This document shows, piece after piece, positions 1 through 47,153 of a stretch of 47,153 nucleotides of DNA; the stretch's first letter is position 1, and each line of letters begins with the position of its first letter. The stretch is taken from the IMG/VR virus record IMGVR_UViG_3300035698_014502, positions 1-47,153 of that record; one strand, 5' to 3'. Source of the DNA: a virus. The translations under genes were made by a program, and so were the position numbers. The notes beneath the pieces were generated by a model. The model saw only the letters and a program-made list of their open reading frames with translations. It had not been told where the DNA came from and made no database searches.

Positions 1-127
1 AATTATGGAACTGATACAGGTGATGCAGATATTCCAGATGGTGCTTGTGATGCAGCAGGAGACGTAGGGAATTATGTAGTGCTAATTAGTTCAGCAGCAG
101 ATCAATATTCACTTACCTCAAACGATG
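1..127. repeat. Left copy of 127-bp terminal direct repeat (circular overlap)
   Basis: Bases 1-127 are identical to 47027-47153. An exact 127-base end overlap is what a de Bruijn assembler produces at k=127 for a circular or circularly permuted molecule. The repeat lies inside a CDS whose frame is kept across the join, so I read it as an assembly overlap and not a biological terminal repeat. Confidence 0.95.
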
Positions 128-26026: not shown

Positions 26027-26346
26027 TTATCGCCAGTCACATCCTCACCAACCGTCAATAACTTAAAAACAACCTCCTTCGTCTTTTCATCATACGTCCG
26101 GTCAATCCGATACTCATGCTTAAAACGCAGAAATTGTGTCTCGTGAATACGCATCTCGTGATCCGTATCTACCAACAACAACACAATAAAAGTTTTCCAC
26201 AATTGATCATACGCTTCTTTTAAATCAACAAGTTGTTGTGTCATTAATTGATTTTCCATTTTATATGTAGCAAGCGTCTGTGCAATACCTTGCTGCTCCG
26301 GTGTAAATTTATTCAGCATTTGTTTTACTTGTTTATTATCAGACAT
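26014..26346 (-). CDS. Helical protein between polymerase and helicase, 110 aa
   Basis: ATG 26346 is chosen for its GAGGGGGGATTTG site. The first 60 residues are helical and Gln-rich (FTPEQQGIAQTLATYKMENQ), possibly coiled coil. It overlaps both neighbours (polymerase C-half and helicase), so it is likely a replication accessory protein. Family not recognised. Confidence 0.55.
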   Translation of the reverse strand: MSDNKQVKQMLNKFTPEQQGIAQTLATYKMENQLMTQQLVDLKEAYDQLWKTFIVLLLVDTDHEMRIHETQFLRFKHEYRIDRTYDEKTKEVVFKLLTVGEDVTGDKCQS

Positions 26347-27184
26347 CAAATCCCCCCTCACTTAACTCATTATAATACACATCAGGATGTTTTGGGAAGG
26401 TTTTAAACTCCACACCTTTCTCATCCCCCCAATTTCTCGCCACTGTTACACTCGCCGGAACACACAAATAATTCCCACTACCTGCTGGTATCTCCCGATT
26501 CTGTTCCATTGACCTCGCCATAAACTGTGCATACTCCCACGACTCATCTAACGGTACACTTGCAATAACCTCATCGTGAATTTGGGCATTTAACGGTCGC
26601 CCATACCTACCCAACATCCAATAATTACCCGGTAAAAACCCGTACTGATTTGTCCAGTCTGCCGCTTCTGCCTGTAAATAATACGAATATGATTCCCGGT
26701 ATAAATCAGCATCAATCCGTCTACCCCGCACATCCAATCTTCTTCCCCAGGATGTAATCAATAGCCCCTCATCCCGTACCATTCTTTCAACCCACGGGAA
26801 ATATATCTCTTTAATCTCATGCATCGCAGCGTGGTAGCTGTCGATAAGCCGATCACACTGTTTCGGATGTATCCATAGATTACCTTTTGTATCTTTACTG
26901 ACATTTTCACTCAGCCGTAATCCTCTCATCCCACGTTGTGCGGCATGTGTTGTTTTCTTACCGAGATACCGTTCATCTTTTGTGATATCGGTGAGTGGTT
27001 TTTTAAATATCATGGATGCATTTTCAGTGTGTGCATCATATACATTTGGTTTAAGGTTTGCCAATTCAATCATTCGTTTTGTACCGCAATACATTTTACA
27101 TATTCTATCTTCAATTTGACTTAAATCTACCCGGACCAGTATGCAACCGTCATCCGGTAGGAAAGTTTCTCTGATTGTTGTCAT
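26339..27184 (-). CDS. DNA polymerase A family, C-terminal half (palm/fingers)
   Basis: A 281-aa protein that starts exactly where family A polymerases continue after the NLQN motif: TTIRETFLPDDG, then motif A VRVDLSQIEDR (about residues 18-28), an O-helix RYLGKKTTHAAQRGMRG (about 68-84), and motif C QIHDEV. The two metal-binding Asp residues are present. By alignment to Klenow, R754 and K758 are kept, position 762 is His as in many phage enzymes, and position 766, normally Tyr, is Arg (codon CGT checked). It must act with the 27532-29403 product. It overlaps the SLOG gene by 4 bp (ATGA). Confidence 0.85.
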   Translation of the reverse strand: MTTIRETFLPDDGCILVRVDLSQIEDRICKMYCGTKRMIELANLKPNVYDAHTENASMIFKKPLTDITKDERYLGKKTTHAAQRGMRGLRLSENVSKDTKGNLWIHPKQCDRLIDSYHAAMHEIKEIYFPWVERMVRDEGLLITSWGRRLDVRGRRIDADLYRESYSYYLQAEAADWTNQYGFLPGNYWMLGRYGRPLNAQIHDEVIASVPLDESWEYAQFMARSMEQNREIPAGSGNYLCVPASVTVARNWGDEKGVEFKTFPKHPDVYYNELSEGGFDV

Positions 27185-27525
27185 ATTATTACCTCAACGT
27201 GTATCTTTAATAAATATTCTCCCGCAAGTTCAATCATATGTCTTGTTCCTCTACTTTTACCGTCCCATATTGCAATTAATGCTTCTGCTTTAATAGCCAT
27301 TTGTAAATTACGTTTATAACCTGCCGAAATACCATATTCTTTCCAATTAGCAGGATATTTTTCTAATTTAATACCATTATCAATTGCCCACATAACACCA
27401 AGAAAATCAACACCATGAGCTAAACCAGTAAGAACTGTTGTGATGTGCCAACCACATTTACTAACAACATTTGATAATATATTATGATCAATTATTGTTC
27501 GTGAACCCGCTATTATTGTACGCAT
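27181..27525 (-). CDS. DUF2493/SLOG-family protein inserted between polymerase halves
   Basis: A 114-aa Rossmann-like protein with the family signature: RTIIAGSRTI at the N-terminus, TGLAHGVDFLG (normally GArGaD), PANWKEYGISAGYKRN, AIWDGKSRGTRHMI. SLOG proteins bind nucleotides or nucleotide-derived ligands and relate to DprA and YspA. The start ATG uses the GAGGTGAT formed by the last codons and stop of the polymerase N-half, and its own end carries GAGGTAATAAT before the C-half ATG. It therefore sits as an insert exactly in the polymerase gene. Whether it mobilised, or serves replication, is unknown. Confidence 0.75.
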   Translation of the reverse strand: MRTIIAGSRTIIDHNILSNVVSKCGWHITTVLTGLAHGVDFLGVMWAIDNGIKLEKYPANWKEYGISAGYKRNLQMAIKAEALIAIWDGKSRGTRHMIELAGEYLLKIHVEVII

Positions 27526-27531
27526 ATCATA

Positions 27532-29403
27532 TCACCTCTTTAAATTCTGCATATTAAGCCCACTTCGCATCGGATTCTTAGCACTACTCAACCGCCCCGC
27601 ATTTGTCAGCAACTTATAACTACACCGCATCCGACCATCCCGATCATACGCCCCTCTTAAGTAATCCAATTCCTTCTTTTTTCCCCTGTGGCTGAGCACT
27701 AATTTCCCAGGCTCCACAGCTTTCGCAAACTTGTGCATTAATTTCCTAAGACTCGCCTCATCCAGTGATGGACTCTTTTTCTTACTCCCATTCTTACCCT
27801 TCCTCAACACAAACATCTTCGGCAAACCCAATTTCCCATGAAAGAAAGCAAACAACTTATCCTTACTAAAATCCTTCTTAACCTTCTCATATTTATACCG
27901 TATCTTACCTGCATTCTTACCCGACATCATATAAGTTAACCCCTGCTCAATTAATTCAAGCCGACGTACCCTATTAATAACTTTCACACCCGGTTTTTCA
28001 TTCAACCTATCAACCTCGCTCGCACCCTCTAATAATAAATCCCATTCATCTTTCTTCGGTACCCGATATTTAGTCTTACTATCAGTAGCGAATAATTCAG
28101 CGTCTGCCATTACATTCAACTTTGCATGAATCCCCTTCATCTCAATCCGCAACAATTTCGCAGCACTTTTCTGTGCATCAACATCAATCCGCATCCCGTG
28201 TCGCATTGTCCTTAATAGCGGCTCTATCATTGCCTGATAATGTTGGATATAAAAATTAAGCATCCCTGCATCATTTAATTGTTTCTCAAATATATCCTTC
28301 AACTCCCTCGTATAACAACAATCCAACCCATTATATACAAAGAGCGCATCGAGATTTTTCGCGTATTTAATAATCTCCTCCGCTTCCTTCGCCTCATCCT
28401 TCCAGAATACATAATGCGGACACGCTATACTTGCAAGATAATCAAGGGAATGGTTCTCTGCCGGATCAAGCGCATGGTGCATTAATTGAACATCCCATAG
28501 AAAATTAACCAATTGTATTCCAACAGCATCCAACCAATACCAATCATATAACCCATTACACAACACCTTCTGCGCCTCACTCTCACACAACACCTTAACC
28601 CAACCGAGATTATCGTTCATTTTACCAATCGTCGGTATTGTTAAACTTTCAAACGGATCAATTGAAAACCCCACACACGATATACTATTACCCCATGTTT
28701 CAATATCAACTGACATCACAACGTCACAACCACCTTCAATAACCCGTTGATAAAAAAGCGCAATATCTTCTTGTGTTGGATTGACAATATGCTTCCTGTC
28801 CGGGTTATGAATTTCCCGGAACTCACTCTCACGTTTAACCCGCTTCCAATCCGTTATGCTCCTTTTTTCCCACTTCGGCATCTGTAACACAGCAGCAGGA
28901 TCAATAACAGGAATCACTTTAATAATCCGACCATTCAAATCCTGGTATGGATATATACTCCCCCGGAGTTGTGTAATGCCCGCTTTCTTTTCCGCTTCTG
29001 TTACATTATTTTCAAATGTATCGAATGCTCTCCGCACATCAGCCTTAATCTTACCCTTACCCGTTAATGCAAACGTAGCATAATTTCCCGCTGTAACAAT
29101 CACATATGGGTCGGTTAACTCAGCAAGCCTATTATGCACACCCTCAATTGCACGATTCAATTTCTCAGCCGGCACACTCCCGACGCTCCGTGTTGGTGGT
29201 CGCCAAGGAAATAAATTCATAAGGTACATTTCTGTACGCTTTAAACCAATATCTCGCCACCAACGGGTAAGAAGATGACCACTCGCACCTGCAAATGGTC
29301 TACCGCTTGCACATTCATTGACCCAAGGTGCCTCACCAAGGACGATAATTTTTGCGTTACGTGGACCTTCAGATGGAACATGTGTATATACTCTTGCAAC
29401 CAT
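27532..29403 (-). CDS. DNA polymerase A family, N-terminal half with UDG-like domain and 3'-5' exonuclease
   Basis: A 623-aa protein from ATG 29403 (TAATG overlap with the upstream gene; GAGGAAAAATA site). Residues 1-200 are a family-4-type uracil-DNA-glycosylase-like domain (VLGEAPWVNE, GRPFAGASG, YLMNLFPWRPP, VIDPAAV in place of the usual HP). Next is a DEDDy exonuclease (VMSVDIETWG, NGLYDWYWLD, YNGLDCCYTRE). Then come thumb helices up to NAGRLSSAKNPMRSG and NMQNLKR, followed by a stop. Phage SPO1 polymerase also has a UDG-like N-domain. The palm is missing here and lies 350 bp downstream. Confidence 0.85.
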   Translation of the reverse strand: MVARVYTHVPSEGPRNAKIIVLGEAPWVNECASGRPFAGASGHLLTRWWRDIGLKRTEMYLMNLFPWRPPTRSVGSVPAEKLNRAIEGVHNRLAELTDPYVIVTAGNYATFALTGKGKIKADVRRAFDTFENNVTEAEKKAGITQLRGSIYPYQDLNGRIIKVIPVIDPAAVLQMPKWEKRSITDWKRVKRESEFREIHNPDRKHIVNPTQEDIALFYQRVIEGGCDVVMSVDIETWGNSISCVGFSIDPFESLTIPTIGKMNDNLGWVKVLCESEAQKVLCNGLYDWYWLDAVGIQLVNFLWDVQLMHHALDPAENHSLDYLASIACPHYVFWKDEAKEAEEIIKYAKNLDALFVYNGLDCCYTRELKDIFEKQLNDAGMLNFYIQHYQAMIEPLLRTMRHGMRIDVDAQKSAAKLLRIEMKGIHAKLNVMADAELFATDSKTKYRVPKKDEWDLLLEGASEVDRLNEKPGVKVINRVRRLELIEQGLTYMMSGKNAGKIRYKYEKVKKDFSKDKLFAFFHGKLGLPKMFVLRKGKNGSKKKSPSLDEASLRKLMHKFAKAVEPGKLVLSHRGKKKELDYLRGAYDRDGRMRCSYKLLTNAGRLSSAKNPMRSGLNMQNLKR

Positions 29404-30128
29404 TATTTTTCCTCTTTCGGTAAATACCATCTTGCTCGATTATCTAAGTACCAAGCATCACAAAACTTTTGTGGTGTTGAATATGCCATTTGTTTTCCTT
29501 GTGATACACGTTTATTGTATAATTTTGCTATTACTTTTTCAAAAGTATTAAAATGTTTTGACCATCTGTCACGATACATTTGGTGCATTTTCCCAGTTTT
29601 TTCGGAATGAAACGGGCAAATTACACAACCAATACGATTAAAACCTTCGTCATATAAACTTGGATACGGTAATTGAAAAACATTAATAAATTCCCAAACT
29701 TGCCACTCTTTCCAGTATAAAATTGGATAATAAACATTAATACCTTTAATATTATTTATTCGTGGATATTTAGCCCGTTTTACACTTTCTTCTGCCCTTA
29801 TACCTAATATACGTGGAATATCAGGTGTTTTTTTAAGTAAACGACAACACCATCTAATATGTCCTGGTGGTATACTTACTGATAATTCTCCCCAAAAAGT
29901 ACGTTTCGGAAAATGTATTTGACAATTAGAATATTCACGCCGAATAAAATGTAACATCTCAGGTGGGTCAATACCGGTATATTGATAATGTAATTCATAA
30001 GGCATCTGTGCTATTTTCATCAATTGTGCAGTACAAATAGAATCTTTACCGCCTGAAAAACCAACGTGTATTACACCTTGGCAATTCTTACGTAACCACT
30101 TAACCGCTTCAATAACATAATCAAACAA
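29403..30128 (-). CDS. PAPS reductase/DndC-like ATP-pyrophosphatase family protein
   Basis: A 241-aa protein with the N-type PP-motif HVGFSGGKDSICT (about residues 22-34), a Cys pair (RWCCRLLKK), and a C-terminal GCVICPFHSEK segment like the Cys-rich end of the family. Enzymes of this fold activate substrates with ATP in sulfate reduction, tRNA thiolation or DNA phosphorothioation; the phage substrate is unknown. TTG 30128 is used as start because an in-frame TAA lies just upstream and GGAGGGG is about 11 nt before it. Confidence 0.7.
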   Translation of the reverse strand: MFDYVIEAVKWLRKNCQGVIHVGFSGGKDSICTAQLMKIAQMPYELHYQYTGIDPPEMLHFIRREYSNCQIHFPKRTFWGELSVSIPPGHIRWCCRLLKKTPDIPRILGIRAEESVKRAKYPRINNIKGINVYYPILYWKEWQVWEFINVFQLPYPSLYDEGFNRIGCVICPFHSEKTGKMHQMYRDRWSKHFNTFEKVIAKLYNKRVSQGKQMAYSTPQKFCDAWYLDNRARWYLPKEEK

Positions 30129-31829: not shown

Positions 31830-32567
31830 TTAAGCCGTAGCATGTGCCTGAATATGAGCACCAAATTCCGCAACAGGTACATCCTGCTGGCAAATTGTAC
31901 ATCTCATAACTGGACCAACCGCCGCCTCAGGTGTTACGGGTGTTGCCACCGGTGCAACAGGTGCCGGATTTGGTACAGGTGCTGCCTGTGTTGGTGCCGC
32001 AACTGGTGCCGCCTGTGGACTCACAACAGGACTCACATTCGGTGCTGCAGCCGGTACACTCGGCGCAACCGGTGCAACCTTCGGTGCTGCTCCCATTCCT
32101 GGTGCTTTACCTGCCGCCGGTGCAACCTTTGCCTCTCTCTCACCAAGTTTATGACAATCAACTACACGATTCCTCAGACTCCCGGCATACTGACCATCTT
32201 TCTCAGTAAATTGTGAAATTGTCATCATCAATTCAGCCCCTACCCCACCATGGCACAATGTTGCCATATCATTACTCTGTGGAATCTGTGCTGCTTTTAC
32301 CATCTTCTTAAACGATCTCGTTCCCATTGTTCCGGGATTGATCCCATTTGGATTTTCTTCCGTACCCATGACATAATTCTCAAACAGTGAAAGCCCGACA
32401 CACTGCGCGGGTGCTTTACAGGTAAATTGAGCACGTGGCATTCTCTTACCCGTCCCACTCATACCATCCTCAAGTTTGTCAACTACCATGTGATAGGTAC
32501 CCGTTGGAAATACTGAATCCTCACTGATATCATCCCACGGAAAAAAATTAGCGTTTGCATCGTTCAT
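31830..32567 (-). CDS. DUF669-like protein with Pro/Ala linker and C-terminal zinc finger
   Basis: A 245-aa protein. The first ~140 residues match the DUF669 type encoded in phage recombination or replication operons (FPTGTYHMVVDKLEDGM, RMPRAQFTCKAP, NPGTMGTRSFKKMVKAAQI). Residues ~145-215 are a Pro/Ala/Val repeat linker. The last 30 hold CTICQQDVPVAEFGAHIQAH, a CCHH zinc finger. It may bind single-stranded DNA or tether a partner to DNA; this is inferred. Strong AAGGAG site. Confidence 0.6.
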   Translation of the reverse strand: MNDANANFFPWDDISEDSVFPTGTYHMVVDKLEDGMSGTGKRMPRAQFTCKAPAQCVGLSLFENYVMGTEENPNGINPGTMGTRSFKKMVKAAQIPQSNDMATLCHGGVGAELMMTISQFTEKDGQYAGSLRNRVVDCHKLGEREAKVAPAAGKAPGMGAAPKVAPVAPSVPAAAPNVSPVVSPQAAPVAAPTQAAPVPNPAPVAPVATPVTPEAAVGPVMRCTICQQDVPVAEFGAHIQAHATA

Positions 32568-33334: not shown

Positions 33335-34147
33335 TTAAAACACCATTTCTTTCCAATAAGGCAAATCCTTCCCCTTACCATCAAACATAAATACCAACAT
33401 CGGTTTTGGAAAACTGCCAGAAAACTGTGACTTCCCGGTACCAAAATCCCCATACAGTAATGTACTAATCGGCATCCTCTCCCCTTTCCAATTTGCCCAC
33501 AATGACTCATAATGCGGATAACATTGATCAGGTGCGTCAATTTGTGTAGTCGCAGCCCATTGTCCGTCATTTTGCGTCTTCAATAGATATATTTGTTTGC
33601 GTTCTTCATCACGCCCCGTATGCACATAATATTGCTCCTGGTATGCTGCGTTCAATAATTTCCTGTTTGATAAACGTCCGGGCGCAAACGGCATCCGAAT
33701 TATCTCCCCTGAAACATCATTCCGCTTTTCATCAATATGGCAAATAATAATAACATTCATCGGCAATGAACTAAACCTCATACATAACATTTCTTCAAGC
33801 GCATCCGTACTCGCTCCAAACCACTGTCTTGTGTCAAATTTCCGCACCGTCTGCTTAGTTTCCCCCGGTGGTAATGGATTAATCATCTTCTCGTCATTCT
33901 TTCGTGCCATTAATTCCATATATGTCACACTATCCACCACAACCGTCTGCCATGTATCATATTCATTCTGTAAATACGCCATACGTGTTCTAAACTTCGC
34001 ATAAGCTGTCGGCTGATCCGGGTCCGCATCCCGATAATATTCAATTCTCACCAAACCATCACCCCGTGTAATATCCCGGTACTCTATCTCGTAATCACCG
34101 ATATTATATGTCTGTATCGGACTGACTTCACCTGTTTTTAGTTGCAT
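33335..34147 (-). CDS. Circularly permuted P-loop ATPase of AAA_24/Sak4 type
   Basis: A 270-aa protein from ATG 34147 (GGAGAAAATAA site). All hallmarks of the phage RecA-like nucleotide-binding family are present but in rotated order: Walker B TVVVDSVTYMEL at residues 67-79, sensor strand NVIIICHIDEK at 131-141, PGRLSNRK at 157-163, DAPDQCYPHYESLW at 204-217, and only then Walker A LLYGDFGTGKS at 230-240. In the usual order Walker A is near the N-terminus. An internal Met at 225 (ATG 33475) directly follows GGGGAGAGG, a strong Shine-Dalgarno, and may mark the ancestral start. Expected role: ssDNA recombination or replication ATPase. Confidence 0.8.
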   Translation of the reverse strand: MQLKTGEVSPIQTYNIGDYEIEYRDITRGDGLVRIEYYRDADPDQPTAYAKFRTRMAYLQNEYDTWQTVVVDSVTYMELMARKNDEKMINPLPPGETKQTVRKFDTRQWFGASTDALEEMLCMRFSSLPMNVIIICHIDEKRNDVSGEIIRMPFAPGRLSNRKLLNAAYQEQYYVHTGRDEERKQIYLLKTQNDGQWAATTQIDAPDQCYPHYESLWANWKGERMPISTLLYGDFGTGKSQFSGSFPKPMLVFMFDGKGKDLPYWKEMVF

Positions 34148-34248
34148 TTATTTTCTCCTTTTCTAAATTCTAACATATTATTCTGCTCCCCCGGATGCCC
34201 CCGCCAGTATTCTTTCCACTCTACACTACCCGGTGTAAGTTGTTTATA

Positions 34249-34467
34249 TCATTCCACCTTAACCCGCTTAAAAAACTTCCGCGTCACACTCTGCTGTAAA
34301 TTATCAAGTTTCGTAATACACCCCGCCAATTCGCCCACCCACTTAACATATTCATCCATTGGCACATCTTCATTATATATAAAAATATCATTAAGTAAGT
34401 GAACATCCCGCGCGATACTATTAACCTTTTTAAAATATGCTTCTTTTGTTAATTCACCGAATTTCAT
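34249..34467 (-). CDS. Small charged protein, 72 aa
   Basis: Helical and charged (MKFGELTKEAYFKKVNSIA; VGELAGCITKLDNLQQSVT). Overlaps the nuclease gene by 4 bp and has a GGCGGAGAGG site. Likely part of the recombination/replication group. Confidence 0.5.
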   Translation of the reverse strand: MKFGELTKEAYFKKVNSIARDVHLLNDIFIYNEDVPMDEYVKWVGELAGCITKLDNLQQSVTRKFFKRVKVE

Positions 34468-35399
34468 GTGTCAATCCTCTCCGCCTCATCTTTCGCCCAC
34501 GGTTCCCAAAGATCAACCGTACATAGTGATTCCACAATCTTCGGATTAAACCCCGCCACACAACATTCCTTAAAATCACAAAACACACACCCCTCATTAA
34601 ATGCACCATTCCGTAACGCATACGGTAACATATCAATTGATGTAAATGCCCTCGATAGTAATTCCGCTTTCCGCGCAATCACAAGTGCATCCTGTTTCCA
34701 CTTCTCAAGTTGCTCCTGCGTCCGATTATACTGATACAATTCAAACTTAGCGTGTTCAATCCCACATTCAATATACTTAACTTTATGTTTTGGGCATCTT
34801 TTCATCGAATCCGGCAATTTCTTAATCTCAATCCCATTAATATAGCAATCCGCCACAATCTGATTATATTCTTTACCTGTCATCCAGCAATATCCTGTCA
34901 TTTGACTTGTCAATCTAAATTTCCTCGCCCACCACGCGGTCAAATTCCCTGTCGTTTTGTGATCCACTGGTGATATAAGTCCTGATTGTTTATCCTTAAC
35001 CAACATATCCCTTTTCACCCAAAACACAAACTCCCCATCTGGATCAATTGCACACCCCTTAATTTTCTCCATTTCAATTGGAATAAACGGAGCCTTCTCC
35101 ACCGGTCTTACATCACAAAAACGCTCCATTATCTTTATACAATTTGACCGCTCAAATCGTAATTCCTCCGGCTGCTCCCCGGCTGGCACCACTTTATTAT
35201 ATTCCGCCTCAAACTTCTCCACCACAACCCGCTTCGGCTGCCCGCTATAATGCAACTCCAACGCCTCATGATAAGCTGTTCCCATATCCCGCGCAACCTT
35301 CGCTCCTTTACTCCGCAGCCCGAAAAAATACTCCGCAATTGCAGCCGCCTCACACCGGCAAAAATTACTTAATAATGAATTATCGAAATTAAATGTCAT
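34464..35399 (-). CDS. PD-(D/E)XK nuclease, Cas4/RecB-like, 311 aa
   Basis: Conserved features in order: N-terminal FCRCEA, MGTAYHEALEL (His-bearing motif), CAIDPDGE (motif with Asp), PVDHKTTGNL (D-x-K catalytic core near residue 142), QMTGY, and a C-terminal CVFCDFKECC that can hold the iron-sulfur cluster with the early Cys. This is the Cas4/AddB-like exonuclease type common in phage recombination operons. It overlaps the genes on both sides by a few bases. Confidence 0.75.
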   Translation of the reverse strand: MTFNFDNSLLSNFCRCEAAAIAEYFFGLRSKGAKVARDMGTAYHEALELHYSGQPKRVVVEKFEAEYNKVVPAGEQPEELRFERSNCIKIMERFCDVRPVEKAPFIPIEMEKIKGCAIDPDGEFVFWVKRDMLVKDKQSGLISPVDHKTTGNLTAWWARKFRLTSQMTGYCWMTGKEYNQIVADCYINGIEIKKLPDSMKRCPKHKVKYIECGIEHAKFELYQYNRTQEQLEKWKQDALVIARKAELLSRAFTSIDMLPYALRNGAFNEGCVFCDFKECCVAGFNPKIVESLCTVDLWEPWAKDEAERIDT

Positions 35400-40191: not shown

Positions 40192-40803
40192 ATGGAAATC
40201 ACCGAATACAACAACGACGATAAATCTACATTTGGTGTGAATGATCTAACAAAACAGCAGGTTGGGTTAGGTGATGGATTGGATTTGGATCGGGAGGCGA
40301 CACTCTGTGCTTGGTTTGAGGCGTTCGGGATGTTACCGTCTGAGATTGAGGCTACACTTAATAAACCAGTCGGGAGTGTACTTAATCTCCGGCAGGATGT
40401 TCATTATAAGATTTTATTAAGTAGATGTCAGAGTTATGTTGCGGAGAAGACTGTCGCTGAGAGTAATAATCCGGAGGAATTATTTAATAGTCAAATTGCG
40501 CCGTCCGTGAGAGCGCTCATTGAGGTCCGGGATGATCTTACTTCAAAGGGTGGGGATCGGATTAAAGCGAGTCTCGCGTTTCTGGATCGAGCACCGAAAG
40601 CACCGAAAGCGAAAAAGGAAATTGATGAACGGAGGTTGATTATATCGCTGCCGTTGAGTGAGTTGCAGACTATGCAACAGGCGTTGATTGAGGAAGATGG
40701 TGACGGGGATCAGGAGATACATGATTTATTAAAAGGGGCGGATTATACTGTAACGGGTGAGGACGAGGGTGATGGGCAAACAGAAACGACTAAAATCAAT
40801 TAG
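40192..40803 (+). CDS. Putative terminase small subunit, 203 aa
   Basis: Directly upstream of and overlapping the large terminase gene. Helical N-terminus with a possible helix-turn-helix (CAWFEAFGMLPSEIEATLNK), a long central helix (PSVRALIEVRDDLTSKGGDR, IKASLAFLDRAP) and an acidic C-terminus; these are the usual parts of TerS (DNA binding, oligomerisation, TerL contact). The ribosome site is distant (GAGGGC about 20 nt upstream), so the start is uncertain. It would recognise the packaging site. Confidence 0.6.
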   Translation: MEITEYNNDDKSTFGVNDLTKQQVGLGDGLDLDREATLCAWFEAFGMLPSEIEATLNKPVGSVLNLRQDVHYKILLSRCQSYVAEKTVAESNNPEELFNSQIAPSVRALIEVRDDLTSKGGDRIKASLAFLDRAPKAPKAKKEIDERRLIISLPLSELQTMQQALIEEDGDGDQEIHDLLKGADYTVTGEDEGDGQTETTKIN

Positions 40804-43414
40804 GGCAGAGAATAGGCGGAAAGCGCGGAAACTTGATACGTCATTCGATGAGGATGATTTCTTCGGTGGGGTAGATAAGGATGCTGATGAGGCAATCAAA
40901 TTAGCGTCATTGCAGAATGTACCAAAACCCGTACCAAAACAGGAGAAAGTTCCAGAACGTCCGTTTCAACTCGGCACAATAAAACACTATAATTATGATA
41001 TAAATGATGGTGAGAAACCGATCACCGGCGTGTCTGATCAAACGTGCCGGATTACGCTCTTATCTGACCCTGTGTTGGATAAGAACGAACAAACACCAGA
41101 GCATTACGATGTTCTCGGTGTATCACAGAGAAGGGGGGGCGTAAAAAACGCGCTGCCCGACGCGTCTGCCTCTCCTTCTTTCTCACCGATTGACCGCACA
41201 TTACCGCAACAGGGTGATGGTGAGTTAATGCAGCATGAAGTTGTGGTTGATAAAAATGGTCAACCACGACAGGCGGGCGCAACTACACCGGAGGGTGAGT
41301 ATATTAAGAGGTATAAAAAACGAGCAGAAGAGAGTCTGTTTGTATTCATTAAGGGTATATTGGGACGATTCTTCCTAACCCCTCATTTCCATCGGGATAT
41401 TTGTCACTTTATTCAAAAATGCCCACCGGCTCGGAAATTAGTATTAATGCCACGTGAACATGCGAAGACTTGTATTGTTGCGGGTGGGTTACCGCCGCAT
41501 ATTTTAATCCAACCGAAAGATAGTAATATTTATTTCCCTGGACTTGAAGGGAGTGAGTGTCGGATATTATTAGCGGGTGAAACGGCAAATATGGCACAGA
41601 AGAATCTCCGTGTAATTAAAGATGTGTTTATGAGTAATAGATTATTTCGTGCCTTCTGGCCTCACCGGGTATGGCAGAATGAACACGATAGCGGTCAATG
41701 GAATAATGACGGGATTATTATACCACGGGATGTTGAGTGGCCTGATCCTACTATACGTGCGGTTGGTGTCGGGGGTGCGATAACAGGTGCAAGACCGAAT
41801 GTAATGATAAAAGATGACCTTGTGACGTTTGATGCTGCAAATAGTGATACGGTTATGTCGGAGGCGGTTGAATGGCATAAGGCAAGTAGGGCGTTGCTTG
41901 ATAAATATGAGGTTGAGAACGGGTTGCAGAGTCTGGAATTTATTATCGGCTGTCTTGTTGGGGACTCTATGATTACTTTGAGTAGTGGTCATAGAATACC
42001 AATAAAAGATGTAACAGTTGGAGATAAAGTTTGGGCATCTGATATAGACGGTAGTTTTATTAAAAGAGAAGTTGAAGCAGTTATTTCTCAAGGTTTTTCA
42101 GAAACTTGGACACTTAAAACAACAGCACATAAAATACGTGGGACAGGTAATCACCCTTTTTTAACTTCTTGCAGTAAAAATAAATTGAAATGGAAAAGAT
42201 TAGATGAATTAAGGGAAGGTGATTATGTAATTTCCCATAAAAACATACCAACTTGGCATGATGATATGGATGATGAGTACCTTTGGTTGCTTGGTTTTAT
42301 GTTTGGTGATGGTTGGGCAAACTATAAAGGAGGTAGAGGATATGTTTGTTTTTCTGCGGGTGTTGTTAAAAGTTTAAATGAACGGGTATTAAAGGCGTGG
42401 AAAAGGTATTTACCTTGTAATAAAATTTATATGACTAAAGGTGGATATTATCGTATGGATTGTAAAGCTGCTGCAGTGCAACTTATGGAAGCAGGTTTAG
42501 TAGGTACAGCAAAAACTAAAAGAATCTTTAATTGGGTTTATTGGATGGAGCCAAAGAAAAAAGAGGCTTTTTTACAGGGGTTTTGTGACGCAGATGGTGG
42601 TTGGCAAAGTGGAAAAATTTGGAATGTTGAAATAAATAATAAAAATTTACTTAAAGATTTGAGACATTTAGCTGATTGTTGTGGTGTTAGACACGGAATT
42701 TTAGGTTTTAGAGAACGAGTATTACAACCACCAAATTCACCCTATCCAGTGCGTTCACAGTATTGGAGAACATCTTTTAATTTTAGAACTGTCGGACGGA
42801 AAGAGTGTTTAGGTTCAGTTAATTTATACGGAGGGAAAAACATAGGAAGGGATACGAAATTTGATGATAATTTACGTTTTGAACGTGTTATTTCGGTTAA
42901 AAGAAATCAAATAGCAGAAGAAGTGTGGGATTTAACAATTAAAGATACACCAGCATTTTTTGCAAACGGTCTTGCTGTGCATAATACTCGCTGGTCCGTA
43001 TATGATTTATACAGTGATATTATTGATAATGATCCATCTGTTGAGGTTAATGATAAGAAATTTCACCAAATTATCAGGGATGGGAATATATTGTGGCCTG
43101 AGAAGTATACTGAAGCGGATATTGAGCAATTACGGACTGAGCATGGCTCAAACTTCTACCTTCTGTATCTAAATAGTGCAGCCGATCCCTCATTGACTGA
43201 CTTTGACATGGAATTGGTAAGAGATTTTGAGATAATTAATGGGGAGATTTGTTTTGAGGAAGATGAGAGGGATATGGTGTTGATGGAGAGGAATAAGCGG
43301 AAATCGAGCAATATAAAACCACCTGCGACTGTGAAAAGGGGGGAGAGATTTAGTGCTGCTACCATGAAAAGGTTAATTGATGGTGGCGGGGGGATGCGTC
43401 TTAGGGCGGGTTGA
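40772..43414 (+). CDS. terL: Terminase large subunit, ATPase part, with intein
   Basis: Start ATG 40772 follows GAGGGTG; an in-frame GTG at 40757 is possible. After a ~190-residue N-terminal extension come the deviant Walker A LVLMPREHAKTCIVAG (about residue 225), a strand pair around ITGARPNVMIKDDLV (Walker B, about 345) and the coupling motif FIIG/TRWSVYDLY, into which a 345-aa intein is inserted. The frame then ends at GGGGMRLRAG without the nuclease domain, which is found at 44191-44832 in another frame. The motor therefore needs either two chains or RNA-level joining. Packages DNA at the portal. Confidence 0.85.
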   Translation: MGKQKRLKSIRAENRRKARKLDTSFDEDDFFGGVDKDADEAIKLASLQNVPKPVPKQEKVPERPFQLGTIKHYNYDINDGEKPITGVSDQTCRITLLSDPVLDKNEQTPEHYDVLGVSQRRGGVKNALPDASASPSFSPIDRTLPQQGDGELMQHEVVVDKNGQPRQAGATTPEGEYIKRYKKRAEESLFVFIKGILGRFFLTPHFHRDICHFIQKCPPARKLVLMPREHAKTCIVAGGLPPHILIQPKDSNIYFPGLEGSECRILLAGETANMAQKNLRVIKDVFMSNRLFRAFWPHRVWQNEHDSGQWNNDGIIIPRDVEWPDPTIRAVGVGGAITGARPNVMIKDDLVTFDAANSDTVMSEAVEWHKASRALLDKYEVENGLQSLEFIIGCLVGDSMITLSSGHRIPIKDVTVGDKVWASDIDGSFIKREVEAVISQGFSETWTLKTTAHKIRGTGNHPFLTSCSKNKLKWKRLDELREGDYVISHKNIPTWHDDMDDEYLWLLGFMFGDGWANYKGGRGYVCFSAGVVKSLNERVLKAWKRYLPCNKIYMTKGGYYRMDCKAAAVQLMEAGLVGTAKTKRIFNWVYWMEPKKKEAFLQGFCDADGGWQSGKIWNVEINNKNLLKDLRHLADCCGVRHGILGFRERVLQPPNSPYPVRSQYWRTSFNFRTVGRKECLGSVNLYGGKNIGRDTKFDDNLRFERVISVKRNQIAEEVWDLTIKDTPAFFANGLAVHNTRWSVYDLYSDIIDNDPSVEVNDKKFHQIIRDGNILWPEKYTEADIEQLRTEHGSNFYLLYLNSAADPSLTDFDMELVRDFEIINGEICFEEDERDMVLMERNKRKSSNIKPPATVKRGERFSAATMKRLIDGGGGMRLRAG
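41951..42985 (+). mobile_element. LAGLIDADG homing intein in terL
   Basis: 345 aa from Cys (CLVGDSMI, block A) through block B GTGNHPFL, two dodecapeptide motifs LGFMFGDGW and LQGFCDADGGW with both catalytic Asp residues, block F VWDLTIKDTPAFFANG and terminal HN followed by Thr (C-extein +1). Removing it joins EFIIG to TRWSVYDL, restoring a terminase motif. Splicing residues and both endonuclease Asp residues look intact, so the element may be active. Confidence 0.9.
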
Positions 43415-43445
43415 TTAACGTAACGTAAAAGAAGGGGGATAAAAA

Positions 43446-43814
43446 ATGGACATTAAGGGTTTAAATGTTTCATTAAAACATTGGCAAAAACGGCTTGGGC
43501 TTAGTCAATGGGAAATTAATATTAAATTTAATGACGCGCGGGATAATGGGTATAATGAAGCAAAAACGATGATTTATAAGAACCAAGAACGTGCTGTTAT
43601 GCGATTAATACGACCAGAGGATCAACGAAAAACAGAAAGATTTAATGATGATATGGAATTAGATTTAATACATGAATTAATACATATCAGATTATGGGCA
43701 ATTGATCCTGAAGACCCTGACGATAATACAGCTATATTAAGGGAACAGGCAATTGAATGGATTGCAAGAGCGTTAATAATAGCAGATAGAGGGGAGGATG
43801 AAAAATGGGAATAA
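43446..43814 (+). CDS. HExxH zinc-metalloprotease-like protein, 122 aa
   Basis: LDLIHELIHIRLWAID (about residues 75-90) is a HExxH zinc motif with a hydrophobic flank, as in SprT-like or minimal gluzincin phage proteins. The rest is small and helical. GGGGGATAAAA precedes ATG 43446. It sits in the gap between the two terminase parts. Substrate unknown. Confidence 0.6.
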   Translation: MDIKGLNVSLKHWQKRLGLSQWEINIKFNDARDNGYNEAKTMIYKNQERAVMRLIRPEDQRKTERFNDDMELDLIHELIHIRLWAIDPEDPDDNTAILREQAIEWIARALIIADRGEDEKWE

Positions 43815-44002
43815 TAATGAATTTCTGGAAAAAACACTGCGATAGACTAATATTCATGTTACTTGCTTTAATGTTTGCATTTCTGTTATACTATTTAAAG
43901 ATGGCAGAGGAAGCAAAAGTAATATTCATTGGTTTAGCGATGTTATGTTATAATAAGTCAAGGGGATCGAACGATAACGGGAGTAATGGTAATGAAAAAT
44001 AA
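43805..44002 (+). CDS. Small membrane protein, 65 aa (holin-like)
   Basis: One long or two short TM helices (LIFMLLALMFAFLLYYL; VIFIGLAMLCY) and a polar Asn/Gly/Ser tail. GGGGAGGATGAAAA site; overlaps the protease-like gene by 10 bp. Holin is a reasonable guess by size and topology only. Confidence 0.55.
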   Translation: MGIIMNFWKKHCDRLIFMLLALMFAFLLYYLKMAEEAKVIFIGLAMLCYNKSRGSNDNGSNGNEK

Positions 44003-44189
44003 TGTTAATCACGTTGAAATTTTTGAAAAATGTTATCGAATATTTAGAAATGGTCATATTTATAGTAATATATCAAAGAAGTTTTTAAAATCAAAAATAA
44101 TGCAATATGGTTATGAATCCATTGGTTTGTATGTAAAATCTGGGAAATATAAATGGTATTTCATTCATCGTTTAGTTGGTGTCATGTAA
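43992..44189 (+). pseudogene. HNH-endonuclease N-terminal remnant, 65 aa
   Basis: The sequence (YRIFRNGHIYSNISKKFLK, then YESIGLYVKSGKYKWYFIHR, then LVGVM) matches the start of phage HNH/NUMOD4-type homing endonucleases, where the HRLVA motif leads into the HNH core. Here a stop follows immediately, so the catalytic HNH part is missing. The terminase nuclease frame resumes 1 nt after its stop. I read it as a decayed homing element that split terL. Confidence 0.6.
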
Positions 44190-44190
44190 T

Positions 44191-44832
44191 ATGAATAGTG
44201 TACCTTTAAATAAATTAGAATGTTTTGGATTTGCTGACCTTGCTGCAGGTCGTGCATCTCGCAATAAACGCCGCACCGCCCGACAATGTATTGTCATCGG
44301 AGCTCGCGACTGGCTCTCACGCTGGTTTTGGGTTTACGTATGGGCGGGACGGCTCACACCTACTGACTTTAAAAATAAAATACTCGATACACAGGAAGAA
44401 TATGCGCCACGGAGATTTGGGCTCGAAGCGAACGGTATGCAAGTGCTTTTTGGCTCGTTGGTGAGGGAAGAAGCGAAATTGCGTTTCGGTCGAATTAAGA
44501 TGCTCCCGATTTACCAACCGACAAAAGTGGAGAAGAATTACCGTATTCGTACAGGTGTTGAACCCATCATACTCCAAGGGAGATTCTTTCTACAGAAAAA
44601 AGAAATTGAAGCAAGGAGTGAGATTGCCGGATTCCCAACCGCAGCAACGAAGGATATAATTGATTCGATGGAAACATGTATGAATAGGGTTGCACCGAAG
44701 ATACCAGTTGCAAAGGCGAGGGATCGGGAATATGAGGAATATGCGCGTTATCTACGAGCAAGCAACATGCCGGTTTACTTAATAACACAGGAATTGGCAA
44801 AATATAAAAACGAAAATGCAATAACGCATTGA
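44191..44832 (+). CDS. Terminase large subunit, nuclease part, 213 aa
   Basis: RNase H-like terminase nuclease: first acidic motif ECFGFADLAAGR (Asp near residue 15), middle strand set RQCIVIGARDWLSRWFWVYV, second acidic motif RRFGLEANGMQ (Glu), third KDIIDSM (Asp). ATG 44191 lacks a good Shine-Dalgarno, unlike nearly all genes here, and a TTG at 44176 is the only alternative. That favours joining to the upstream part by RNA splicing, or weak independent expression. It supplies headful or site cutting of DNA. Confidence 0.8.
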   Translation: MNSVPLNKLECFGFADLAAGRASRNKRRTARQCIVIGARDWLSRWFWVYVWAGRLTPTDFKNKILDTQEEYAPRRFGLEANGMQVLFGSLVREEAKLRFGRIKMLPIYQPTKVEKNYRIRTGVEPIILQGRFFLQKKEIEARSEIAGFPTAATKDIIDSMETCMNRVAPKIPVAKARDREYEEYARYLRASNMPVYLITQELAKYKNENAITH

Positions 44833-45556: not shown

Positions 45557-47153
45557 ATGTTTAAATTTATGTCTAAAATATGGTTGTTTTTTATTATCAT
45601 TCTATTCGCTGTACCAAATGTACAAGCAGATAAAATTGGTACTCTTTTAGAGGAAGCCGACGGTACACCTGCTGGTTATATTTATAAATTAAAAATGCCA
45701 AACGGCTCGCTTACAATTTCTGGTGGTGTTGGTACGTATGTAGCTGTTGGCGGTGGTGGGGGGGATTTGCTTGCTGATGGTTCAGTCCCGCTTAGTGCGA
45801 ATTGGGATTTAGGCGCATTTACACTCACAGCTACGCAATTTATCAGTGATATTGCTATTGGAACAGCCCCTTTTGTTGTTACAAGTACAACTGAAGTTGC
45901 GAATTTACTTGCAGCTACAGCAACCCTTGCAACTACCGTAACAGTTACAGATAATGAAGCTACAAACGAGAATAACCCTGTATGGTTTAGTGCAGGAGCA
46001 GCAGGAAGTGGCTCAGTTGGTGCAGAAGCGGACGGAGATTTTACTTATAATCCATCAACTGGAACTGTAGGGGCAACTCTTTTTTCTGGTTCAGGTGCAA
46101 GTTTAACTGCTTTGTCTGGGGCGAATATAACAGCAGATTCTTTATTAGAGCCTGCATTAAATACAACAAATGCGGCAGGAGCAGGAACAGATAATTATCT
46201 TTTATCTTATAATCATGCTGGAACAAATTACACTTGGGTTATAGCAGGTTCAGGGGCAGGAGATTTACTCGCTGATGGCACAGTCGAACTTACAGCCAAT
46301 TGGGATGCAGGACCTTTTACTTTTACAGGCACGCAATTTATATCCGATATAGCTATAGGCACAGCACCTTTTGTTGTGACTTCAACAACCAATGTGCCAA
46401 ATTTGAACGCATCCTCATTAGGAGGTGCAACTTTTGCTGCTCCTGGAGCGATTGGTGGGACTACACCAGCAGCAGGAACATTTACAGAGGTAAGTATTCC
46501 ACAATCAGCAACAGCAAGTTACTCAAGATTCTATGAAGGATCAGGGGATGGCGCTAATTATCATGATCTGCATGGACAAGCTTTTGCAGCAAACCGAGCA
46601 AGTTATCTCCCTGATTATGTAGTTGGATTTCTTCTCTCAACCAAGGTAGATGCAGGTGGAGACTTTGCGGATGATAGTATAGATTCTCAACATTATGTTG
46701 CAGCAAGTATTGATAATGAACATCTTGCAGACAGTGCCGTTGATACAGCAGAGATTGCAGCAGATGCAGTTGAAGGTACTAAGATTGCAGATGATCAAGT
46801 TGACTCTGAACATTATGTTGCAGGTTCAATAGATAATGAACACATGGCGGATAACGCTGTCGGAGTTGATGAACTTGCCACAGATTCAGTTACTATGGAT
46901 GCTATAGATGCAGACGGTAATTTCGCATCCCTCACAGGAGATTGGACAACAACTGGATATGTAAGTGGGCAAGCCAATGTTCAAACAGATGCTTCTGGTG
47001 CCATTACAATGACAGTAAATGCTGTGAATTATGGAACTGATACAGGTGATGCAGATATTCCAGATGGTGCTTGTGATGCAGCAGGAGACGTAGGGAATTA
47101 TGTAGTGCTAATTAGTTCAGCAGCAGATCAATATTCACTTACCTCAAACGATG
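45557..47153 (+). CDS. Fibre-like protein with signal peptide and repeats (N-terminal part; continues at base 1)
   Basis: The frame runs to the window end and continues at base 128, for 586 aa in total. Residues 1-24 are a Sec-type signal (WLFFIIILFAVPNVQA). Two ~49-residue copies follow (GDLLADGSVPLSANWD at ~70 and GDLLADGTVELTANWD at ~236, both leading to FISDIAIGTAPFVVTSTT). A repeat of DSxHYVAxSIDNEHxAD lies at about residues 375-440, typical of tail fibres in aquatic phages. GGGGATTAAATA site. A host-binding appendage is likely; the signal is unusual. Confidence 0.75.
   Translation, partial: MFKFMSKIWLFFIIILFAVPNVQADKIGTLLEEADGTPAGYIYKLKMPNGSLTISGGVGTYVAVGGGGGDLLADGSVPLSANWDLGAFTLTATQFISDIAIGTAPFVVTSTTEVANLLAATATLATTVTVTDNEATNENNPVWFSAGAAGSGSVGAEADGDFTYNPSTGTVGATLFSGSGASLTALSGANITADSLLEPALNTTNAAGAGTDNYLLSYNHAGTNYTWVIAGSGAGDLLADGTVELTANWDAGPFTFTGTQFISDIAIGTAPFVVTSTTNVPNLNASSLGGATFAAPGAIGGTTPAAGTFTEVSIPQSATASYSRFYEGSGDGANYHDLHGQAFAANRASYLPDYVVGFLLSTKVDAGGDFADDSIDSQHYVAASIDNEHLADSAVDTAEIAADAVEGTKIADDQVDSEHYVAGSIDNEHMADNAVGVDELATDSVTMDAIDADGNFASLTGDWTTTGYVSGQANVQTDASGAITMTVNAVNYGTDTGDADIPDGACDAAGDVGNYVVLISSAADQYSLTSND
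45764..45909 (+). repeat. Internal fibre-module repeat, copy 1
   Basis: Encodes GDLLADG to STTEVANLL and is homologous in frame to 46262-46407 at the same 146-nt length. The DNA has diverged mostly at third codon positions, so the duplication is old and under selection. Confidence 0.8.
46262..46407 (+). repeat. Internal fibre-module repeat, copy 2
   Basis: Second copy of the ~49-residue module, 498 nt after the first. Confidence 0.8.
47027..47153. repeat. Right copy of 127-bp terminal direct repeat
   Basis: Identical to bases 1-127. Joining the two copies closes a 47,026-bp circle and restores one 586-aa reading frame (45557 to 291). Confidence 0.95.

Follow-up and report, generated by a model that had tools for sequence, protein, structure and literature searches.

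Locus and motif order

The window analyzed here is a whole IMG/VR contig of 47,153 bp, and its minus strand carries an uninterrupted open reading frame from an ATG at 34147 to a stop codon at 33335-33337, which the frame itself and profile matches mark as a permuted Sak4-like ATPase gene (33335-34147, 270 aa). The ATG is preceded by a good ribosome-binding site, AAAAGGAG, at 34155-34162 (minus strand, as are all features of this gene). Read from the N-terminus, the protein presents a Walker B strand, VVVD (residues 69-72, 33932-33943, within the Walker B-like TVVVDS at residues 68-73), then a sensor-like strand, NVIIICH (residues 131-137, 33737-33757), both placed by motif reading and profile, and only then a Walker A motif, GDFGTGKS (residues 233-240, 33428-33451), which aligns with the native Walker A of orthologs. 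These positions agree with a sequence-only reading of the same DNA, which had placed Walker B near residue 70, the sensor strand at 131 and GDFGTGKS at 233-240. Its further statements, that the gene has one good start with no stop between the parts and that no second copy lies nearby, also held, as AAAAGGAG stands ahead of the ATG, the frame is open throughout and no other copy was found in this genome across the whole 47,153-bp contig.

The upstream neighbor is a PD-(D/E)XK exonuclease gene (PF12705, phrog_1218; 34464-35399, minus strand), with the same synteny in G003, G007 and G009, three related contigs described below. The downstream neighbor encodes an SSB-like protein with a proline-rich tail (31830-32567, minus strand), whose match to phrog_378 is weak in the window (E 9.5e-4) and stronger in the G009 copy (6e-7). 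The window thus holds the recombination cassette of an exonuclease and an SSB beside Sak4.

The protein matches Pfam AAA_24 (PF13479) above the cutoff (2.2e-9); this match falls into two stretches in the actual order and becomes a single one on rotation. The protein also matches PHROG_124 (Sak4-like ssDNA annealing protein) at 4e-15 as read and 2.6e-16 rotated. A Barstar match fell below its cutoff and was disregarded. Rfam gave no hits in the window, leaving the rotated order without an annotated intron as explanation.

For a direct comparison, the protein was scored as it stands and in several rotations against a native-order profile of eight proteins, four from related contigs and four from phages PMBT14, KM, ctKR88 and vir526. 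Residues 7-222 match profile positions 51-243 (E 7.5e-58), and residues 226-267, within the relocated 46-aa piece, match positions 5-48 (E 6e-15), values that exclude chance for the relocated piece alone as well as for the remainder. The two blocks cover the full profile in swapped order, with no overlap and a gap of two positions, and rotation at Met225 merges them into a single block (positions 5-243, 243 bits) with the top score among the rotations tried. The comparison of rotated and native order that the sequence-only reading had proposed therefore came out as it expected, and shows that the native sequence is complete and unduplicated, with a single cut located between profile positions 48 and 51. 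Pairwise alignment with the native-order ortholog of G007 gave the same picture, with residues 17-221 aligned to 66-264 and residues 226-268 to 4-46. Residues 1-224 (33476-34147) are thus the native C-terminal part, with Walker B, the sensor strand and the C-terminal strands, now placed first, and residues 225-270 (33338-33475) are the native N-terminal beta-P-loop-alpha-beta unit, 46 aa, now placed last.

Native-order relatives and a second permuted gene

Relatives of the window phage were located via portal, DNA polymerase and capsid searches. Sak4-type orthologs in native order were found in G007 (IMGVR 3300017613_000498; 55% identity), in G003 and G004 (38-40%) and in G005 (30-32%, about 30%), all in the gene slot that the window gene occupies, flanked by the genes for the PD-(D/E)XK exonuclease and the SSB-like protein. 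The reference phage collection yielded only distant Sak4 matches. As the native order is found in these relatives and in all distant outgroups, the rotated order is derived, and the possibility that it is the norm of the family was ruled out, since every outgroup examined has the native order. The contig of G001, the closest relative by DNA polymerase, breaks off within the SSB gene, immediately short of the Sak4 slot. In native-order G003 and G005 (L016:4715-5500 and L018:561-1379) the Walker B aspartate is lost (AVGS, IVSS), and the Sak4-type ATPase may accordingly be degenerate in part of the clade.

The search of related phages for the same order, also proposed from the sequence alone, uncovered a second permuted gene on a 49,813-bp contig, G009 (IMGVR_UViG_3300037245_003366), where a single match spans the full window protein. 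Its open reading frame encodes 263 aa, beginning MQLKTGQVGEIQTYNIG and ending RMPIHCLIYGDTGTGKSTFLATFPKPMIVFLFDPKGKDIPFWHHWEG, and has AAAGGAGGG where the window gene has its ribosome-binding site AAAAGGAG. The two proteins are 53% identical, begin with the same six residues (MQLKTG) and carry an identical permutation with the same start and breakpoint. The relocated P-loop unit is no less conserved than the remainder, at 61% identity compared to 51%. No permuted copies beyond these two were detected when the permuted pair was used to query viral and genome collections, or in a search via the SSB gene; these returned only known native relatives.

Differences between the two genes by codon position are 0.38/0.27/0.53, with a pS of 0.69 and a pN of 0.32; with synonymous sites close to saturation, these values do not give a precise omega. 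When the same changes were spread at random (300 trials), amino-acid identity fell to 31% (maximum 36%), compared to the observed 53%, and about 11 stop codons arose. Together, the codon-position pattern, the pS and pN values and the randomized comparison establish that the permuted form is maintained by purifying selection.

Both contigs end in an exact 127-bp terminal direct repeat (window 1-127 and 47027-47153; in G009, the start of L038 and the end of L040). Such a repeat is the usual sign of circular assembly, and both genomes are probably closed. A database search describes records of this sort as linear ends or fragments despite the 127-bp repeats. The distance from the permuted gene to the contig end is 13 kb.

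The window protein has both the Walker A and the Walker B motif of the Sak4/AAA_24 family (GDFGTGKS, TVVVDS), but Walker A does not precede Walker B, and the two blocks are swapped in the window and G009 alike. The entire ancestral sequence is retained in rotated order, and relatives in native order exist, as in circular permutation generally. Judged by its sequence, the window gene is a permuted derivative of Sak4/AAA_24 by descent and not a canonical member. The circular permutation of a Sak4/AAA_24-type protein first read from the motifs is thereby borne out by the profile tests, by native orthologs in the same slot and by the G009 ortholog, which is permuted at the same breakpoint.

The junction and the origin of the permutation

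The internal ATG at 33475, the codon of Met225, had been noted to directly follow GGGGAGAGG, and it does. This stretch (33476-33484) is probably a relic of the native ribosome-binding site that now codes part of the linker. The junction between the old C-terminus and the old N-terminus spans 3-8 residues and is coded in the window by AAAGGGGAGAGG, apparently the former ribosome-binding site; G009 likewise retains the methionine and a similar purine-rich stretch there. Internal initiation at Met225 is possible. At the other end, the native ortholog of G007 has an internal methionine (NMLPDSG) aligned with the new start of the permuted protein. The break falls within a loop that the native model shows with low confidence (43-59), and is close to an indel between native orthologs.

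These features suggest that, in an ancestor of the window phage and the G009 phage, the old C-terminus would have been fused in frame to the old N-terminus, with read-through across the old start region turning its ribosome-binding site into coding sequence for a linker of about 3-8 residues. The new start lies in the loop that follows the second strand, where a methionine would have become the initiation codon, so that the chain starts after beta2 and ends with the beta1/P-loop/alpha1/beta2 unit. Within 2 kb, nothing left over from the lost duplicate halves was detected, so the route, a tandem duplication in frame with subsequent loss of the outer halves, is one that we infer.

In the Sak4 tree, the window, G009 and G007 group with strong support (99/99) but with no supported branching order among the three, and a permuted clade of the window and G009 is neither required nor rejected (p-AU 0.255). 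The common start and breakpoint favor one permutation event. The DNA polymerase tree places G003 and G005 nearer than G007, conflicting with the Sak4 tree, and this conflict over G007 and G003 points to a probable exchange of the Sak4 gene among these phages.

Fold, function and precedents

The AlphaFold2 model of the permuted protein, built from a very shallow alignment, had a pLDDT of 40.5, too low for use; for the native ortholog the value was no higher than 53. The latter model is of middling quality and matches Rad51, KaiC and the solved Sak4 structure 8rc5; a PDB sequence search with the native alignment gave chance-level matches only. The permuted protein is expected to keep the usual RecA core fold, with the C-terminal 46-aa P-loop unit docking last and Walker A packing beside Walker B. 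Sak4 of phage HK620 shows ATP-dependent ssDNA binding and annealing, with its SSB assisting (PMC5928155), and Rad51-like filaments are known for the Sak4 of phage 52A (PMC11846896). The permuted protein would bind ssDNA and anneal strands in an ATP-dependent manner together with the neighboring exonuclease and SSB-like protein, and the exonuclease-Sak4-SSB neighborhood fits the SSB dependence of Sak4 (PMC5928155). We consider it very likely that the product of the gene is a Sak4-type (RecA/Rad51-core) ATPase with a natural circular permutation, derived from one ancestral in-frame fusion, for which the usual fold and ATP-dependent ssDNA annealing are predicted.

A permuted protein that kept its fold could also have drifted to a new role, for example a structural or regulatory one, and no longer anneal ssDNA. 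The loss of the Walker B aspartate in G003 and G005 (VGS, VSS) means that ATP hydrolysis is not kept by every member of the clade, which lends this some weight, but the window and G009 proteins both retain Walker A and the Walker B aspartate and sit in the exonuclease/SSB neighborhood, the window protein also retaining the sensor strand, and we regard such a change of role as unlikely. A different question is raised by the junction, where both permuted genes have kept Met225 and a purine-rich stretch ahead of it, as would be expected if initiation at 33475 also yielded a free 46-aa P-loop peptide complementing residues 1-224, with the fusion incidental. The fused frame is nevertheless open in both genes, though one stop codon would split the parts, the native Walker B half would then be without its partner strand, and retention of "RMPI" at the junction may serve the fold, so that two working polypeptides appear distinctly improbable.

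Misassembly, a chimera or a pseudogene would be a natural suspicion for metagenome contigs in which the rearrangement route is not visible. A second contig at 53% protein identity carries the same permutation, however, both frames are open, the substitutions follow a pattern of purifying selection, and the gene lies far inside a contig whose terminal overlap, like that of G009, suggests a closed genome; the diverged second contig and the selection on it make an artifact or a decayed gene extremely unlikely.

As a circularly permuted Sak4-type ATPase, the window protein can be set beside several known systems. With the Sak4 family (PHROG_124, PF13479; phages HK620, PA73 and 52A) it shares Walker A, Walker B, the sensor strand, the RecA-core-only size and the exonuclease and SSB neighborhood, and both of its parts match the profile significantly, but its order is B-sensor-A instead of A-B-sensor, with new N- and C-termini. 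The native orthologs in G007, G003/G004 and G005 occupy the same gene slot but have the usual order. The same class of break is seen in cpRAS, a circularly permuted GTPase with the order G3-G4-G5-G1-G2 (PMC2430557), in which the first P-loop unit has likewise moved behind the Walker B part; in the window protein, too, the break separates the Walker A unit from the Walker B strand (profile 48/51, after beta2 of the native model). However, cpRAS is a eukaryotic RAS-type GTPase, not a RecA/ASCE ATPase, and has no family-level homology to the window protein, for which Pfam gives AAA_24 and no Ras family. The YRG GTPases (YlqF/RbgA, RsgA, YqeH) are also natural circular permutations of a P-loop NTPase, but in their order, G4-G5-G1-G2-G3, Walker A still comes before Walker B, and the window protein, with Walker B first, does not follow it.

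RecA-fold recombinases bind ATP between filament subunits, and the order of the core is therefore expected to be tightly held. No published case of a permuted RecA, Sak4, Rad51 or other ASCE ATPase was found in a search confined to open-access literature. On balance, we lean toward regarding the window gene as the first case in nature of a circularly permuted RecA/ASCE-type recombinase core, kept over a long divergence, in which the P-loop unit would dock from the C-terminus and the relocated chain ends possibly alter filament assembly. A permutation of the cpRAS type was once argued to be unlikely (PMC2430557), and the window case parallels it. The beta-P-loop-alpha-beta unit has been proposed as an ancestral fragment of P-loop enzymes (PMC7758060), and a conserved natural rotation of this unit alone is a test of its modularity. 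For annotation pipelines the case is a warning, as the G009 copy, read in its real permuted order, scores under the Pfam cutoff, and other permuted copies may be hidden for the same reason.

Elsewhere in the window, DNA polymerase A (26339-29430, minus strand) is split into two open reading frames with a YspA/SLOG-family frame between them (27181-27525); it is likewise split in G001, G003, G005, G008 and G009, and intact in G006 and G007. In the region 40757-44832 (plus strand), the open reading frame of a candidate terminase large subunit contains an intein at residues about 397-744, and its candidate nuclease part is a separate frame (44176-44832) behind a small HELIH-motif frame (43446-43814). 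The G009 counterpart lacks the intein, yet its two parts likewise lie apart.
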